Source: Enterobacter cloacae subsp. cloacae ATCC 13047
GTDB lineage: Bacteria > Pseudomonadota > Gammaproteobacteria > Enterobacterales > Enterobacteriaceae
Assembly: GCF_000025565.1 (NCBI RefSeq)
Contig: NC_014121.1
Span: 124,001 to 188,000, forward strand
DNA length: 64,000 nt
Direction: 5' to 3'
In this document: piece by piece, positions 32,588-39,046 of the stretch
Layout of the letters: each line of letters opens with the position of its first letter
Position numbering within the stretch: the first letter of the stretch is position 1
Position numbers and translations under genes: made by a program
The notes under the pieces: generated by a model
Database searches by the model: none
What the model was told of the DNA's origin: nothing
The model's input: only the letters and a program-made list of their open reading frames with translations

Positions 32588-33357
32588 GCTTTGTTCTCCC
32601 TGGATATATCACTGTCGCCAGGCAGACGGGTAATACGCGCCTGTCGGGCCTGATCTTCATCAAATCGTTTAATGGTGGTGTGGACGAAGCCCAGATGCGC
32701 CATCATCGCCTTGCGTGCGGCCTCGGCATCACCGGCCAGAATGGCGTTGAGCACCGCCTCGTGCTGTTCGGTCAGTTGAGCAAAGACCGGCGGGACCAGA
32801 TACATGCGCTGGCGGCTCTGCTTCACGGAGGATTGCAGCAGGTCGAAAAAACCGCGCATGGTCTGGAGCAGCACCACGTTGTGCGACGCCTCGGCAATCG
32901 CCAGGTGAAAGCGGACATCCGCCTGCGAAGCGATATCCGGGTCGCTGCTTTGCGTGGCGTCGAAGCAGGCCCTGAGCTTCTCTTTGTCGGCCTCGGTTGC
33001 TCGCATGGCAGCATGCCAGGCGGTACTGGTTTCGATAGCGTGACGGGCTTCGAGGATGTCGAAGCTGTAGTCCGGGTCATTCTCCATCAGGGTTTTGAGC
33101 GGCTGGACGATGTTTTGCTCGGACCAGTCGTCATGTTGCCAGCGCACAAAGGTGCCGCCGCCGCGACGGCTTACCAGTACTCCTTCGCTGACCAGCGTCG
33201 CCAGCGCTTCACGCAGGGAATTGCGCGACACGCCAAGCTGAGCGGCGAGTTGACGTTCAGCGGGCAATTTCATGCCCGCTTCCAGCTGTTGTTCTTCAAT
33301 CAGCGCCCGCACGCGAGAGGCAATCTCGTCGGACAGGCGTCTGGGCATGACTATCAT
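32584..33357 (-). CDS. lldR: L-lactate-responsive regulator LldR (GntR/FadR family)
   Basis: 257 residues. An N-terminal winged helix, [26 protein letters not shown] at about residues 30-55, is followed by an all-helical FCD effector domain with metal-site histidines in [18 protein letters not shown] and AHLGFVHTT. In E. coli, LldR represses or activates lldPRD depending on L-lactate, binding two operators upstream of lldP. Two matching palindromes are present here at 35084-35100 and 35209-35224. The start overlaps the lldP stop by four bases. Confidence 0.94.
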
Positions 33358-35009
33358 GGGATCATCCAGGTTAAGACATAGGCCTGCAGGGTGGTGATCA
33401 CCCCGACCATGCAGGTGAATATCAGGCTGTGTTTCACGGTAAAACGGAACAGGTCGGACTCTTTACCCACCAGCCCTACTGCCGCACAGGCAATGGCGAT
33501 GGACTGCGGAGAGATCATCTTCCCGGTCACGCCGCCGGTGGTATTCGCGGCCACCAGCAGCACGTCAGAGACGCCAATCTGCTGAGCTGCCGTCGCCTGC
33601 AGGGCGGCGAACAGGGCGTTAGACGAGGTATCTGAACCGGTCAGGAATACCCCCAGCCAGCCGAGGAACGGCGAGAAGAAGGTGAAGGCGTGGCCGGTAT
33701 GGGCCAGCGCCAGTGCCAGCGTTGATGACAGGCCGGAGTAGTTCGAGATAAACGCGAACGCCAGCACCATGCCGATGGAGTAGATCGGCAGCATCAATTC
33801 TTTAATGGTCGCCGCAAAGGTCTGTACCGCGGCGGCCGACTTCATGCGCAGCCACACCACAGAAAGGAGTGCGGCAAACAGGATGGCCGTGCCGGTGGCG
33901 GAGAACCAGTCAAACTTAAATACCGCCGCGTACGGCGTGGCGTCGTGCACCACTGGCGGCATACGGGCGACCATCTTGTCGAGGAACGGCACGGAGATGT
34001 TAATCACCATGTCGTACAGCGCACCGCCCGGGGCAAACAGGGCCTTAAACGGCGGGATGCTCCACAGCGTTACCGTGGCGGTCAGGAACAGGAACGGTGA
34101 CCAGGCGCGAACGATCTGCCCGGCGGTATAGCCCGTGCGGGCGAGCGTCTGATCCACGTGCGACGCGCCCATATCGGCAAAGCGGAAGATGCGCACAGGC
34201 TGCCAGCGTTTCAGGAACAGCGTCAGACAGACCAGCGACACCAGGGAAGAGATAATGTCCGGCAGCTCCGGGCCAAGGAAGTTCGAGCTGAGATACTGGG
34301 CAATCGCGAACGAACCGCCCGCCACCATCACCGCAGGCCAGGTCTCCTTCACGCCGCGCCAGCCGTCCATAATCGCCATGATCCAGAACAGCACGATAAT
34401 GGTCAGGAACGGCAGCTGGCGGCCAACCATCTGACCAATTTCGAAGCTGTCCAGGCCAGTCACCTGGCCTGCGACCAGAATCGGAATACCCATCGCGCCA
34501 AACGCCACCGGCGCGGTGTTGACGATCAGGCAAAGACCGGCGGCATAGAGCGGGTTAAAGCCCAGCCCGACCAGCAGCGCGGCGGTGATTGCCACCGGCG
34601 CACCAAACCCTGCCGCCCCTTCCAGAAACGCCCCGAAGGAGAAGCCGACAATCAGCATCTGCAGGCGCTGGTCCGGCGTGATGGAGAGAATCGACGAGCG
34701 AATGATGTCGAACTGCCCGGTTTTGACTGAGATTTTATAGACAAACACTGCGGCGATGATGATCCACGCAATCGGCCACAGGCCGTAGAAGAAACCGTAG
34801 ACAACGGATGCCAGCGCGCGATCGATCGGCATTTTGTAGAAGAACAGCGCCACCAGCAGCGCGATGGCGACGGTGTACGTCGCGGCGAGGTAGCCCTTCA
34901 GCTTGAGCTTAATCAACGCAAAGAAGAAGAACAGGATCGGCAGCGATGCGATCAGGCTGGACAGCCAGATATTCCCGGCCGGGTCGTAGTTTTGTTGCCA
35001 GAGGCTCAT
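33354..35009 (-). CDS. lldP: L-lactate permease
   Basis: A 551-residue integral membrane protein of the lactate permease family (LctP), which imports L-lactate, D-lactate and glycolate with protons. It starts [21 protein letters not shown] and has about 12-14 membrane segments. Hallmark loops are [24 protein letters not shown] and [17 protein letters not shown], followed by [20 protein letters not shown]. The ribosome site CCAGGAGA precedes the ATG. First gene of lldPRD, with LldR-type operators in the 220 bases upstream. Confidence 0.96.
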
Positions 35010-35208: not shown

Positions 35209-35224
35209 ATTGGTTGGGCCAATT
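35209..35224. promoter_or_regulatory. LldR-like operator, distal to lldP
   Basis: ATTGGTTGGGCCAATT, read on the other strand AATTGGCCCAACCAAT, differs from the E. coli LldR operator at one central base. It is about 200 bases upstream of lldP. In E. coli two such sites act together by looping; the pair here has about 120 bases between centres. Confidence 0.75.
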
Positions 35225-35230
35225 TTGAAG

Positions 35231-35262
35231 CGGGGCCCTATCGGGTGATAGTGGGCCCCGTA
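35231..35262. terminator. Strong hairpin behind the helicase fragment
   Basis: GCGGGGCCC-TATCGGGTGATAG-T-GGGCCCCGT forms an uninterrupted GC stem extended by CTATC/GATAG with one bulge. It lies 25 bases behind the stop of the leftward helicase remnant. There is no long T run, so termination strength is uncertain. Confidence 0.6.
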
Positions 35263-35286
35263 AATGCGTTTCTAGAATATCAGTAA

Positions 35287-36724
35287 TTAAATAGCCTTCT
35301 GAGCAGAAGAGGCGTCTCCGATAACAATCAAACCATCTTGTTGCTTAAGGCGGTTATCTTTAATTTCCTGCTCAATGACTTCGGATATTACCTTTCTAAG
35401 GAGGCTACTGGTTGATTTAAAACCAAGCATCCTTGAGACGGATGTAATGATTTCATCTTCAGTTGCTCCCAAGCTTGCGCTAACGATGTCAAAGACACCT
35501 GAAGCGATTTCTATAGGTGCGATCAGTTCTGGTTTACGTACGCCTGCAGACAAGACGTGCTGTCTGTTGCGGATTCGAATTGCTACTTCTTTATGTATGA
35601 AAAATTCTTGCTCCTTATAAATCTTACCTCTCTTGCAGGCAATTTGAGCAGCCTGGCTAACAACACTTTCTATCCGTGCACCAGCTCGCTGCAACCCCCA
35701 TGCTGAGCGCAGACGAGTGATTACTTCATTCAAATGGATAGGCGATTCTGTGAAGACTATTTTTTCAACCATGTCAGCAAGTATGCCGGTTGGTGTTTCA
35801 TGTAAAGCATAGGAAAGATTGGCTTCGGGTTGTGCTTCTTCATAAATGATAGACTGGTCATTAGCGGAATCAGTTCTATCAAGACCAATCTCAACAACGT
35901 CTTCTCGTTCAACAGTGACGATATCAACTGGAACGGCTCGGGAACGCCCGTATGTGTGTTCTGCTCTGTTATTCAGTTCTCTTTTTGCATTCTCAATAGC
36001 GTAAATAACTTTTTGCAATTGTTCCTCAGGTCTTTGGAACCAATCAGTACTCCAGATTCTGTGGATGATCCATCCATGATCTTCCAGAACGGCTTGACGT
36101 AAGCGATCACGCTCTCTGGCAGAACGAGAGGAATGATAAGCGCTGCCATCACATTCAATCCCGAGAAGATAACGGCCAGGTAGATCAGGATCGGCAATTG
36201 CCAGATCGATGAAGAAGCCAGCAATTCCGACTTGTGGGTGCACCTGATAGCCCCGCTTCTGAAGTGCTGAGGCGACTTGTTCTTCAAATACGCTATCCAT
36301 CGGACGCCCTGAAACAGTGGACATTGATAAACGTCCTGTACGTGCATATTGAAGGAAGAGTTTGAACGCCAATACGCCAACACCTTTCGCGCGCTCAAGA
36401 TCAATATCTTCATCGGTGATCGATGCAAAAACCTCACATCGGCGTTTTGCACGGCTAATCAGCACATTAAGCCGTCGCTCACCGCCTTGCGAACCCAGAG
36501 GGCCGAATCGCATTGCCAGATAACCTTGTTTATTACGCGCATAGCCTACAGAGATCATGATGACATCACGTTCGTCACCTTGAATGTTTTCCAGGTTTTT
36601 AATGAAGAATGGCTCGGCAGGATGAGAATTAAAGAAATCTTCATATTGAGGATTTAAACGGCGGAGAATCTCTAATTCATCCTGGATAGCTTTACGTTGT
36701 GAGACAGAGAATGTTGCGACTCCC
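35287..36724 (-). pseudogene. C-terminal remnant of large SF1 helicase with Vsr-like nuclease and DUF3320
   Basis: About 478 native residues remain; the first 10 residues of the open frame come from the IS. In order: helicase motif IV-like TFSVSQRKAI; motif V LENIQGDERDVIMISVG; and motif VI GGERRLNVLISRAKRR, as in the AAA_12 half of SF1 helicases. Then comes an MTES_1575/Vsr-type nuclease domain with FEEQVASAL, FFIDLAIAD and GIECDGSAYHSS (D...ExD), ending RIWSTDWF. The last third matches DUF3320 (PIHLNEVITRLRSAWGLQRAG). Such proteins are usually 1,500-2,000 residues with DUF4011 and Walker motifs at the N-terminus; those are missing here. The architecture is typical of defence-island helicase-nucleases. 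Lower GC than neighbours indicates transfer. It cannot be a working helicase. Confidence 0.83.
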
Positions 36725-36753
36725 TGACCTGCCCCCACGATTAGATACAACAC

Positions 36754-37587
36754 TCAGTTAGTAACGTCGGAATCTTCATTCTCAGAATGACCCTTTCTCC
36801 AGCCCGCTGCAAATTCAGACGGTGTCTGATAATTCAGCGTGGAGTGCGGGCGGCATTCGTTATAATCCTGCCGCCAGTCATTAATAATTTTCCTGGCATG
36901 AACGATATCGCTGAACCAGTGCTCATTCAAACATTCATCGCGAAATCGTCCGTTAAAGCTCTCAATAAATCCGTTCTGCGTTGGCTTGCCCGGCTGGATT
37001 AAGCGCAACTCAACACCATGCTCAAAGGCCCATTGATCCAGTGCACGGCAAGTGAACTCCGGCCCCTGGTCAGTTCTTATCGTCGCCGGATAGCCTCGAA
37101 ACAGTGCAATGCTGTCCAGAATACGCGTGACCTGAACGCCTGAAATCCCAAAGGCAACAGTGACCGTCAGGCATTCCTTTGTGAAATCATCGACGCAGGT
37201 AAGACACTTGATCCTGCGACCGGTGGAAAGTGCGTCCATGACGAAATCCATCGACCAGGTCAGATTGGGCGCCGCCGGACGGAGCAGCGGCAGACGTTCT
37301 GTTGCCAGCCCTTTACGACGTCTTCTGCGTTTTACGCCCAGGCCACTGAGGTGATAAAGCCGGTACACGCGCTTATGATTAACATGAAGCCCTTCACGGC
37401 GCAGCAACTGCCAAATACGACGGTAGCCAAAACGCCTGCGCTCCAGTGCCAGCTCAGTGATGCGCCCTGATAAATGCGCATCAGCAGCCGGACGGTGAGC
37501 CTCATAGCGGCAGGTCGACAGGGATAAACCTGTAAGCCTGCAGGCACGACGTTGCGACAGACCGGTCGCATCACACATCAACATCAC
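36754..37587 (-). CDS. IS407-group transposase OrfB (DDE integrase domain)
   Basis: 277 residues with an HTH_21 region ([20 protein letters not shown]) and an rve catalytic core: first Asp in [12 protein letters not shown], second in [14 protein letters not shown], and Glu in [18 protein letters not shown]. It ends close to the left terminal repeat. As in other IS3 elements it is probably made as an OrfAB fusion by programmed frameshifting; the frame continues upstream toward orfA. It appears intact. Confidence 0.9.
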
Positions 37588-37610
37588 GGCTTCCCGCTTC
37601 TGGTCTGTCG

Positions 37611-37874
37611 TCAGTACTTTCGCCCAAGAGCCACCTGAAGCGCCTCTTTATCCAGCATGGCTTCGGCAAGCAGCTTCTTGAGTCTGGCGTTCTCTTCCTC
37701 AAGCGACTTCAGGCGCTTAACTTCAGGCACCTCCATACTGCCATACTTCTTACGCCAGGTGTAAAACGTGGCATCGGAAATGGCATGCTTGCGGCAGAGT
37801 TCACGGGCGGGTACCCCAGCTTCGGCTTCGCGGAGAATACTGATGATCTGTTCGTCGGAAAAACGCTTCTTCAT
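37611..37874 (-). CDS. IS407-group transposase OrfA
   Basis: 87 residues, HTH_Tnp_1 family: [20 protein letters not shown], then the helix-turn-helix [21 protein letters not shown] and a coiled coil [20 protein letters not shown]. Binds the terminal repeats. Frame intact. Confidence 0.9.
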
Positions 37875-37956
37875 GGGGATGTCCTCATGTGGCTTATGAA
37901 GACATTACTAACATCGGGGTGTACTAATCAACGGGGAGCAGGTCACCCAGTATTTT

Positions 37957-38002
37957 TTGGATAATAAAAAACCCAATATATTCTGTTGGTGAATATATTG
38001 GG
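37957..38002 (-). terminator. Rho-independent terminator of yibL
   Basis: On the minus strand, a 12-bp perfect stem CCCAATATATTC-ACCAACA-GAATATATTGGG is followed by TTTTTTATTATCC. It lies 32 bases behind the yibL stop and therefore ends transcription of the yibL gene. The IS right end is 12 bases further on. Confidence 0.9.
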
Positions 38003-38034
38003 CAGGATTTTATTAACTTAACTAAAATTAACTA

Positions 38035-38397
38035 TCAGAACGCCGTCTTACAAAAACCCGTCATCTCTTTCAGGCCCATTTCGCGACCAAGCTCGGTCAT
38101 CGGGTGGACCACCACCAGACCCCGTACGCTTTTCTTCAGCTTGCCCATATCGGCCTGCTCTTTTTTGGTAATGGCGCGGCGGTGCGGCATATTCATCAGC
38201 TTCTGCGCTTCTTTACTCAGCTTCTGGCTTTTCACTTCGCGCAGGCGCTCGATCTCCGCTTACAGCTTCGCGGTCTCTTTCTCCAGCTCGGCGTACTTCT
38301 CGGCGGAGTCTACCAGCGAGAGACCGGCCATCTGATGGCGGATCAGATCCAGGCGGTCGCTCAGGCGTTTAATTTCGTTCTTTTCGACTTCTTTCAT
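38035..38397 (-). pseudogene. yibL: yibL (DUF2810), interrupted by an in-frame stop
   Basis: Reading from the ATG at 38397 gives [20 protein letters not shown] and continues colinear with E. coli YibL over 120 codons to the natural stop. Codon 46 (38260-38262) is TAA, in the stretch [16 protein letters not shown], where E. coli has a sense codon (Glu). One base change explains it. A GTG at 38235 could restart translation of the last 66 residues, including [21 protein letters not shown]. YibL is a small ribosome-associated protein of unclear role. The gene order lldP-yibL-mtlR is retained. It is a real nonsense mutation or a sequence error. Confidence 0.85.
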
Positions 38398-38455: not shown

Positions 38456-39046
38456 TTACTTCTGAAACGCTTTTTTTAAGCTGATTCGGGAAATCAGCTC
38501 AGTCAGGGAAAGAACCATCGTGGAACGGACAACCTGTTGATAACGCAGCTTTTGCATGGCGTACAGTTCCGGGTCGCTGTTATCAAAATGGGGGGCAGGG
38601 GGGAGCGCGGTAACGCAATGCAGCTCGCCGAAGGGGCCAAGGATCTCGTCATCGGTAAAGGTGTACTCATTACCGTCATGATTGAGCTCTTCGCGCAGCG
38701 CCATCAATAGCTCCGCATCTTCATACTCTTGCCGGTTCAGCACGCCAAGACCATAAATCAACTTCAGACGCACGGATAAATCGCCCAGCGGTCCGTCGCC
38801 GTCCAGTAACGGTTCTACAGCATATTTTACCGCGTAGTCGTCTTTGCGAAACACCTGAAGTACCAGGATATTCACCGCCTCGGTTAATAACTCGACGGCG
38901 GTAATCAGGAAACTTCGTACGGTTTTGCCAGCATTCAGACGCTCAAGCACACGATTTTCAAAGGCCTGGGTTTGTTCCATTATTGCCTGCATATCTGACA
39001 ATCTGTAATCAGGGCGCAGGATCACCTGCGCCTCACTGTGCATCAT
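38456..39046 (-). CDS. mtlR: Mannitol operon repressor MtlR
   Basis: 196 residues, closely matching E. coli MtlR from [23 protein letters not shown] through [18 protein letters not shown]. MtlR represses mtlADR by a mechanism that does not involve a standard DNA-binding fold. The first ten residues differ from E. coli; two adjacent ATG codons (39046, 39043) are possible starts, and both overlap the mtlD stop (ATGATGA). Last gene of mtlA-mtlD-mtlR. Confidence 0.95.

Follow-up and report, generated by a model that had tools for sequence, protein, structure and literature searches.

A degraded ProA-type anti-phage gene beside ISSen4 in the lldP-yibL interval of Enterobacter cloacae

The MTES_1575 protein of Microbacterium testaceum has been described as a combination of HEPN, transglutaminase, SF1 helicase and Vsr REase domains with two winged helices (PMC3710099), and a defence hotspot of Pseudomonas aeruginosa as having a large DUF4011 gene in its right-hand core flank (PMC10250203). 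Related profiles include ProA (NF058533, "anti-phage protein ProA"), for which the NCBIfam annotation name suggests a role in phage resistance, PDC-S37, a candidate defence family by its PADLOC name, and Hhe (NF042953), named by NCBI as a DUF4011 anti-phage protein and found on Klebsiella plasmids. Hhe presumably carries helicase and Vsr-like nuclease parts. Among the matches listed from the open-licence literature no description of ProA under that name was found, the term PDC-S37 was absent from the literature searched, and no paper on the lldP-yibL slot stood among the best 15 of 191 matches.

The window analysed here is a stretch of 64,000 nucleotides from Enterobacter cloacae subsp. cloacae ATCC 13047 (NC_014121.1, positions 124,001 to 188,000 of the forward strand). 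It contains a degraded member of this already catalogued anti-phage gene family (Table 1). Very probably the gene was inactivated by an ISSen4-linked loss that removed most of a single-gene insert.

Table 1. Coordinates of the features discussed, in the window unless a locus is named.
Feature	Position	Strand	Remarks
lldP, left flanking core gene	33354..35009	-	61/61 genus genomes
Palindrome ATTGGTTGGGCCAAT	35209..35223		~200 bp upstream of lldP
Left junction of the insert	35224..35286		palindrome to remnant stop codon; kept, aligns with gene-bearing relatives
3' remnant of ProA/PDC-S37-type gene	35287..36724	-	SF1 helicase end, MTES_1575 Vsr-like nuclease, DUF3320, further winged-helix region, own stop codon
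Frame of 488 codons without stop	35287..36753	-	first ~10 codons IS-derived
ISSen4 (IS3 type), 1221 bp	36725..37945	-	ends TGACCTGC...GCAGGTCA
ISSen4 orfB	36754..37587	-	
ISSen4 orfA	37611..37874	-	
Rest of DNA between yibL and intact-gene start	37946..38034		aligns with gene-bearing relatives
yibL, right flanking gene	38035..38397	-	in-frame TAA at codon 46
mtlR, second marker of the interval	38456..39046	-	61/61 genus genomes
Phosphoesterase-ATPase pair	L046 9721-14517; L049 9512-14241		six further distinct loci

The remnant and its intact relatives

The 478 residues that follow the IS-derived codons of the frame, up to base 36724, correspond to the C-terminal 478 residues of an 1854-aa protein of Enterobacter oligotrophicus (G036). 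An earlier sequence-only reading had recognized here the tail of a very large helicase-nuclease with Vsr-like and DUF3320 parts, and both domains and direction were right. It had also put the loss at the N-terminal two thirds; the loss stands, but about 1375 of the 1854 residues, i.e., three quarters of the protein, are missing. Pfam finds a partial AAA_12 at residues 11-110 (profile 113-192 of 195, the front of the domain being absent), MTES_1575 at 156-253 (E 1.7e-39) and DUF3320 at 317-363 (E 9e-18), the last being the single DUF3320 match in the whole 5.6-Mb genome. The best PADLOC family is PDC-S37 (E 2e-175, 584 bits, model 1096-1544 of 1550) and the best NCBIfam model is ProA (508 bits, model 1459-1902 of 1903; below its cut-off of 1500 bits), followed by Hhe (349 bits; cut-off 2000). 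The assignment to a defence-type family thus agrees with the best matches, whose family is annotated as anti-phage.

Across 52 sequences there is no variation in QGDERDV and LNVLISR, the stretches which we take to be helicase motifs V and VI of SF1, nor in D173, E190 and D192 of the remnant (the D...ExD set). The remnant has no internal stop, and none of the 112 positions invariant across 51 relatives is altered in it. This test has little power, because 39 of the 52 rows of the same alignment likewise score 0; the count says only that no decay is visible in the remnant. Nearly all of the divergence between the window and G036 copies must predate the break.

A sequence search for solved relatives of the remnant returned two RAP-domain chains (E 0.039). 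Its AlphaFold model has a mean pLDDT of 72.9 and a pTM of 0.42; the winged-helix tail reaches pLDDT ~87-96, and the helicase half is poor (~34-65 over residues 31-110). Foldseek with this model gave no match at E 0.001. The best E-values belong to a COP9 signalosome chain (0.0015) and then a cullin complex, neither nuclease nor helicase, which are probably winged-helix or helical look-alikes. For the tail the similarity is to winged helices of SelB (E 0.008-0.08). The nuclease part resembles the catalytic domain of I-Bth0305I (3r3p; E 0.07, target-normalized TM 0.80) and NGO0050, an endonuclease-like protein (E 0.11, TM 0.75); the matches that bear on a Vsr-like fold, to 3r3p and 3hrl, have E-values of only 0.07-0.11.

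In a genus sample of 61 genomes, the window's own (G000) included, nine match the remnant, again counting its own. Intact frames of 1854-1858 aa occur in four: G036 (95% identical to the window copy), G053 (85%), G015 (Huaxiibacter chinensis, 80%) and G045 (Enterobacter sp. RIT418, 78%). In each the gene adjoins lldP and has yibL and mtlR on its other side, so that the intact genes predicted for this interval do exist there. All four carry DUF4011 (~26-204), AAA_11 (~318-382 and ~1215-1256), AAA_12, MTES_1575 and DUF3320 by Pfam, exceed the ProA cut-off with 1632-1647 bits, and have PDC-S37 as best PADLOC match (1871-1893 bits; PADLOC was used here without a cut-off). The expected ProA order, DUF4011 - AAA_11/AAA_12 - MTES_1575 - DUF3320, was taken from relatives above the cut-off, and all four show it at full length. 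Partner genes, which had been suspected beside intact copies, did not appear: no partner gene of at least 100 aa accompanies any of the four, and other frames of that size overlap ProA or yibL.

Two further genomes, G038 and G026, hold ProA remnants in the lldP-yibL interval, each beside an IS3-type transposase gene. In G026 (L016) a fimbrial operon lies beside ProA, and another IS3-type element splits the N- and C-terminal pieces of ProA. ProA is thereby broken in three of the seven carriers at the site, window included, each with an IS in or adjoining the remnant. Elsewhere in their genomes, G009 has a 42% identical protein and G056 a weak match (E 1.4e-4).

The break at ISSen4

The IS noted earlier at the break is ISSen4, which adjoins the remnant directly and which we take to be a member of the IS407 group. 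Its ends match each other, and it is annotated as ISSen4 in the best 8 of 2976 plasmid records (99.4-99.8% identity). The window genome holds 13 copies of 99-100% identity. Four of these have an exact 4-bp duplication at their ends and eight have 0 or 1 matching base; the window copy has three, CCC being common to both sides, and no 4-bp duplication. Three matching bases fit a deletion, and the missing 4-bp duplication is weak evidence, because nine of the 13 copies (L141-L153, G000) have none. The same nine copies suggest repeated IS-driven rearrangement in this genome. End tetranucleotides common to ISSen4 copies were considered as a pointer to a recombining pair and dropped, chance matches being expected among 13 copies.

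The short stretch between ISSen4 and yibL aligns with the yibL-to-gene-start stretch of G036 and G026, and gives no alignment with the three empty sites compared. The left junction of the insert and the DNA to the right of the IS both align with gene-bearing relatives, so that ~4.3 kb was lost in place; in G036 this stretch starts ~180 bp ahead of the gene and reaches to about codon 1376. The lost part (G036 protein, residues 1 to 1376) has no match anywhere in the window genome; the whole G036 protein as query does retrieve relatives in other genomes. The simplest account of the in-place loss, as judged from these alignments, is that ISSen4 drove it. A single-gene insert of ~5.6 kb would once have lain between the yibL 3' end and the lldP control region; ISSen4 would have inserted in or beside the ProA-type gene, and ~1375 codons and ~180 bp upstream would then have been lost, either through a deletion that started at the IS or when two IS copies recombined. 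It is also conceivable that ISSen4 entered a gene already deleted, by a plain insertion with a 3-bp duplication.

Judged by its domains, the intact protein would be a single-chain helicase-nuclease, presumably serving in defence in this genus. Its SF1 motor would translocate on or unwind invading DNA, the C-terminal winged helices would bind DNA, and the Vsr-like D...ExD nuclease would cut it. The remnant cannot be a working helicase, because DUF4011 and both AAA_11 stretches are gone, and most likely it has no function in defence.

Contents of the lldP-yibL slot

lldP and yibL flank the remnant as the sequence-only reading had named them, yibL with the in-frame stop given in Table 1. In the 25 other loci read yibL is open, one of them (L023) having a run of N inside. 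The palindrome in front of lldP, ATTGGTnGGnCCAAT, has the look of an operator for LldR, an identification that we assume. The pattern ATTGG(4-8 bases)CCAAT is matched in 18 of 26 intervals, window included, and a near form ending in CCAAA or CCACA stands in the other eight. Among the aligned ProA carriers the insert starts, or the sequences diverge, just past this palindrome (the edge was read for ProA inserts only).

Slot size was taken as the lldP-mtlR distance in the 61 genomes, two of which have the genes on separate contigs, leaving 59. The distance is 688-909 bp in 40 of these and 1.9-12.4 kb, more than 1 kb extra, in 19. As a control, the interval on the opposite side of lldP, up to the next transporter gene, measures 2077-2129 bp in all 26 genomes in which that gene was found (of 61). 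A second control runs from mtlR to a gene that we label EmrA-like, found in 48 of the 61 genomes; it measures 4097-4285 bp in 43 of 45, G023 (contig start in between) and G040 and G054 (separate contigs) being left out; the exceptions are G031 (4953 bp) and G048 (5312 bp, match incomplete there). Both control intervals run mostly through operons and are stricter places.

The content of the inserts was read from Pfam on 18 insert proteins, the remaining usher and chaperone relations coming from blastp. ProA or its remnants occupy seven of the 19 inserts (G000, G015, G026, G036, G038, G045, G053), and chaperone-usher fimbrial operons of two types occupy 11 (G014, G017, G026, G027, G028, G029, G037, G039, G043, G050, G056); G026, with both a ProA remnant and a fimbrial operon, is counted twice. 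The insert of G006 is a single fimbrial-type gene and that of G060 a YadA-like trimeric autotransporter. The ushers of the two operon types (L018-L029) are ~27-29% identical to each other, and an HD-domain protein and a winged-helix regulator accompany one of the types.

The lldP-yibL interval is thus a variable slot, in which fimbrial operons are a more frequent cargo than ProA. Of the integration hotspot proposed earlier, the insertions in relatives were found (19 of 59 genomes), but the cargo is not mainly defence: with seven inserts holding ProA against 11 with fimbrial operons, a defence hotspot, understood as mainly defence genes between core genes, does not describe it. Pfam found no site-specific integrase among the 18 insert proteins, two IS elements with their transposases aside, which would make flanking homologous exchange more likely than site-specific integration. 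A catalogued anti-phage gene comes and goes at a fixed chromosomal slot also used by adhesin operons, and the slot, lying just upstream of the lactate operon, is with either kind of cargo a useful map point for annotation. The intact natural ProA copies in relatives can be tested in a laboratory strain.

Rival readings and relation to known systems

Whether the slot was filled by exchange or by descent was judged from pairwise synonymous divergence among five carriers over the last 478 codons of ProA, the first 202 of lldP and 196 of mtlR, codon-usage differences between genes being uncorrected. In nine of the ten pairs the ProA value is at least 1.4 or saturated, with lldP at 0.36-1.18 and mtlR at 0.42-0.76. 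The pair of window and G036 shows the reverse, ProA (0.27) being below both lldP (0.48) and mtlR (0.35). ProA tracks neither its flanks nor a single rate, which suggests horizontal exchange into the slot and its horizontal refilling. Old inheritance in the genus, with loss by most species instead of repeated import, would explain why junctions on both sides are common to the aligned ProA carriers. It is an unlikely reading, as it accords neither with a ProA divergence that lies above the flanks in nine pairs and below both in the tenth, nor with the empty site of G023, whose flanks are the nearest to the window among the 13 loci compared (lldP 97.1% over 921 bases, mtlR 98.6%).

The remnant might still work, if transcription driven by ISSen4 and a GTG start yielded a new short protein, a free Vsr-like nuclease with winged helices. 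The TGA of orfB ends at 36754, and an in-frame GTG lies directly next to it (36751-36753) and opens the remnant frame, in which the invariant residues are all kept, the D...ExD set included. Moreover, the top match in a protein search with the remnant (7990 candidates of 0.55-1.75 times its length scored; best 120 of 2967 matches) is the exact 488-aa product (P0122), IS-derived start included, which heads a cluster at 90% identity of 23 sequences on seven contigs. The longest of these contigs (5464191 bases) is other than the window's, so that the same truncated frame, or one very near it, occurs in other assemblies. Further C-terminal forms were found in Enterobacter-type bacteria and Leclercia: Enterobacter roggenkampii has one of 560 aa (92%) and Leclercia adecarboxylata one of 473 aa (86%), another is 481 aa long (92%, 24 sequences), and that of E. 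asburiae is partial; the forms P0122-P0126 range from 425 to 560 aa and differ in their start points. A working fragment is nevertheless improbable. A break of modest age would look alike, half a helicase domain is still attached, and promoter-like sites are no more frequent than in shuffles, with none on the minus strand; terminator signals likewise do not exceed those in shuffles. The differing starts are those expected from repeated truncation, P0125 begins after an unrelated stretch of ~14 residues, and some of the short forms carry the label partial or come from short contigs; some may be contig ends or internal-start calls. Short C-terminal forms appear to persist or recur, which fits repeated truncation, a useful short form being less likely. 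An ordinary chromosomal helicase as the source of the remnant is scarcely credible: in its favor is a weak similarity to IGHMBP2-type helicases (15 bits), against 584 and 508 bits for the defence families at the top. The whole protein is also matched in only 18 of 392 Enterobacteriaceae-level genomes (E <=1e-60, own genome included), several of them more distant, at 34-51% identity.

The inactivated ProA-type gene belongs to a family that is large beyond the genus. A search with the intact protein, whose reach excludes proteins much shorter than 1020 aa, gave 7907 proteins at E <=0.001 among 7998 scored candidates. No close copy of the remnant was found by megablast in 5426 E. coli genomes, and a distant-mode search with the last 4000 bases of the intact gene hit two E. 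coli genomes with a 127-base Hhe match. On plasmids there is no near copy of the remnant, none of the 215 records at 60-80% covering more than 80% of its length. The intact protein matches 337 plasmid records, 241 of them from Klebsiella, with one record at 90-95% identity and one at 60-80%. Among the best 20 of the 337, five of the seven from K. pneumoniae or K. oxytoca are annotated as Hhe and two as RecD-like helicase, at ~32% identity.

Public genomes gave 91 stretches with ProA, of which 80 loci were kept. lldP, yibL and mtlR stand beside ProA in two of them, which are the contigs of G015 and G045. In 13 loci an Mre11/SbcD-like phosphoesterase and an AAA_27 ATPase (1155-1173 aa) lie downstream of ProA on the same strand; six of the 13 show no difference in the 1400 ProA bases compared, which leaves eight distinct cases among rhizobia and their relatives, in Microvirga, Mesorhizobium, and Aquibium. 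The phosphoesterase stays below the SbcD model cut-off (60 vs. 77.65 bits) and has no match among defence models, and the ATPase (Rad50/SbcC-like) gives weak PADLOC matches to LmuB, PtuA, GajA, and mad3. Three other frames of at least 150 aa lie in between in L044 (Microvirga). The pair proteins of L046 (Microvirga) are ~33-36% and ~27-29% identical to those of non-Microvirga loci, and given this low identity the linkage of ProA with the pair looks old. A search of the 25 loci L011-L035 did not find the pair. Tentatively, ProA could have an optional partner and supply the helicase-nuclease activity in a defence unit of three proteins that processes DNA ends, with the Enterobacter gene as a stand-alone form of ProA. 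Five of the 80 loci have a C5-cytosine methylase-like gene no more than 6 kb from ProA (L062, L066, L067, L077, L102; by Pfam in L062 only).

Compared with the systems named at the outset, Enterobacter ProA has the helicase, the Vsr-type nuclease and a winged helix overlapping DUF3320 in common with the MTES_1575 protein; the latter also has HEPN and transglutaminase domains (PMC3710099), whereas Enterobacter ProA has an N-terminal DUF4011 and no HEPN match. The Hhe model aligns almost end to end with the intact relatives, all four of which miss its cut-off of 2000 bits (1089-1118 bits); identity to plasmid Hhe is ~32%. PDC-S37 is the best PADLOC match of remnant and intact relatives alike. 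The intact relatives at the site are like ProA in passing its cut-off with the same domain order, and the window copy is unlike it in keeping the last quarter only, at 508 bits.
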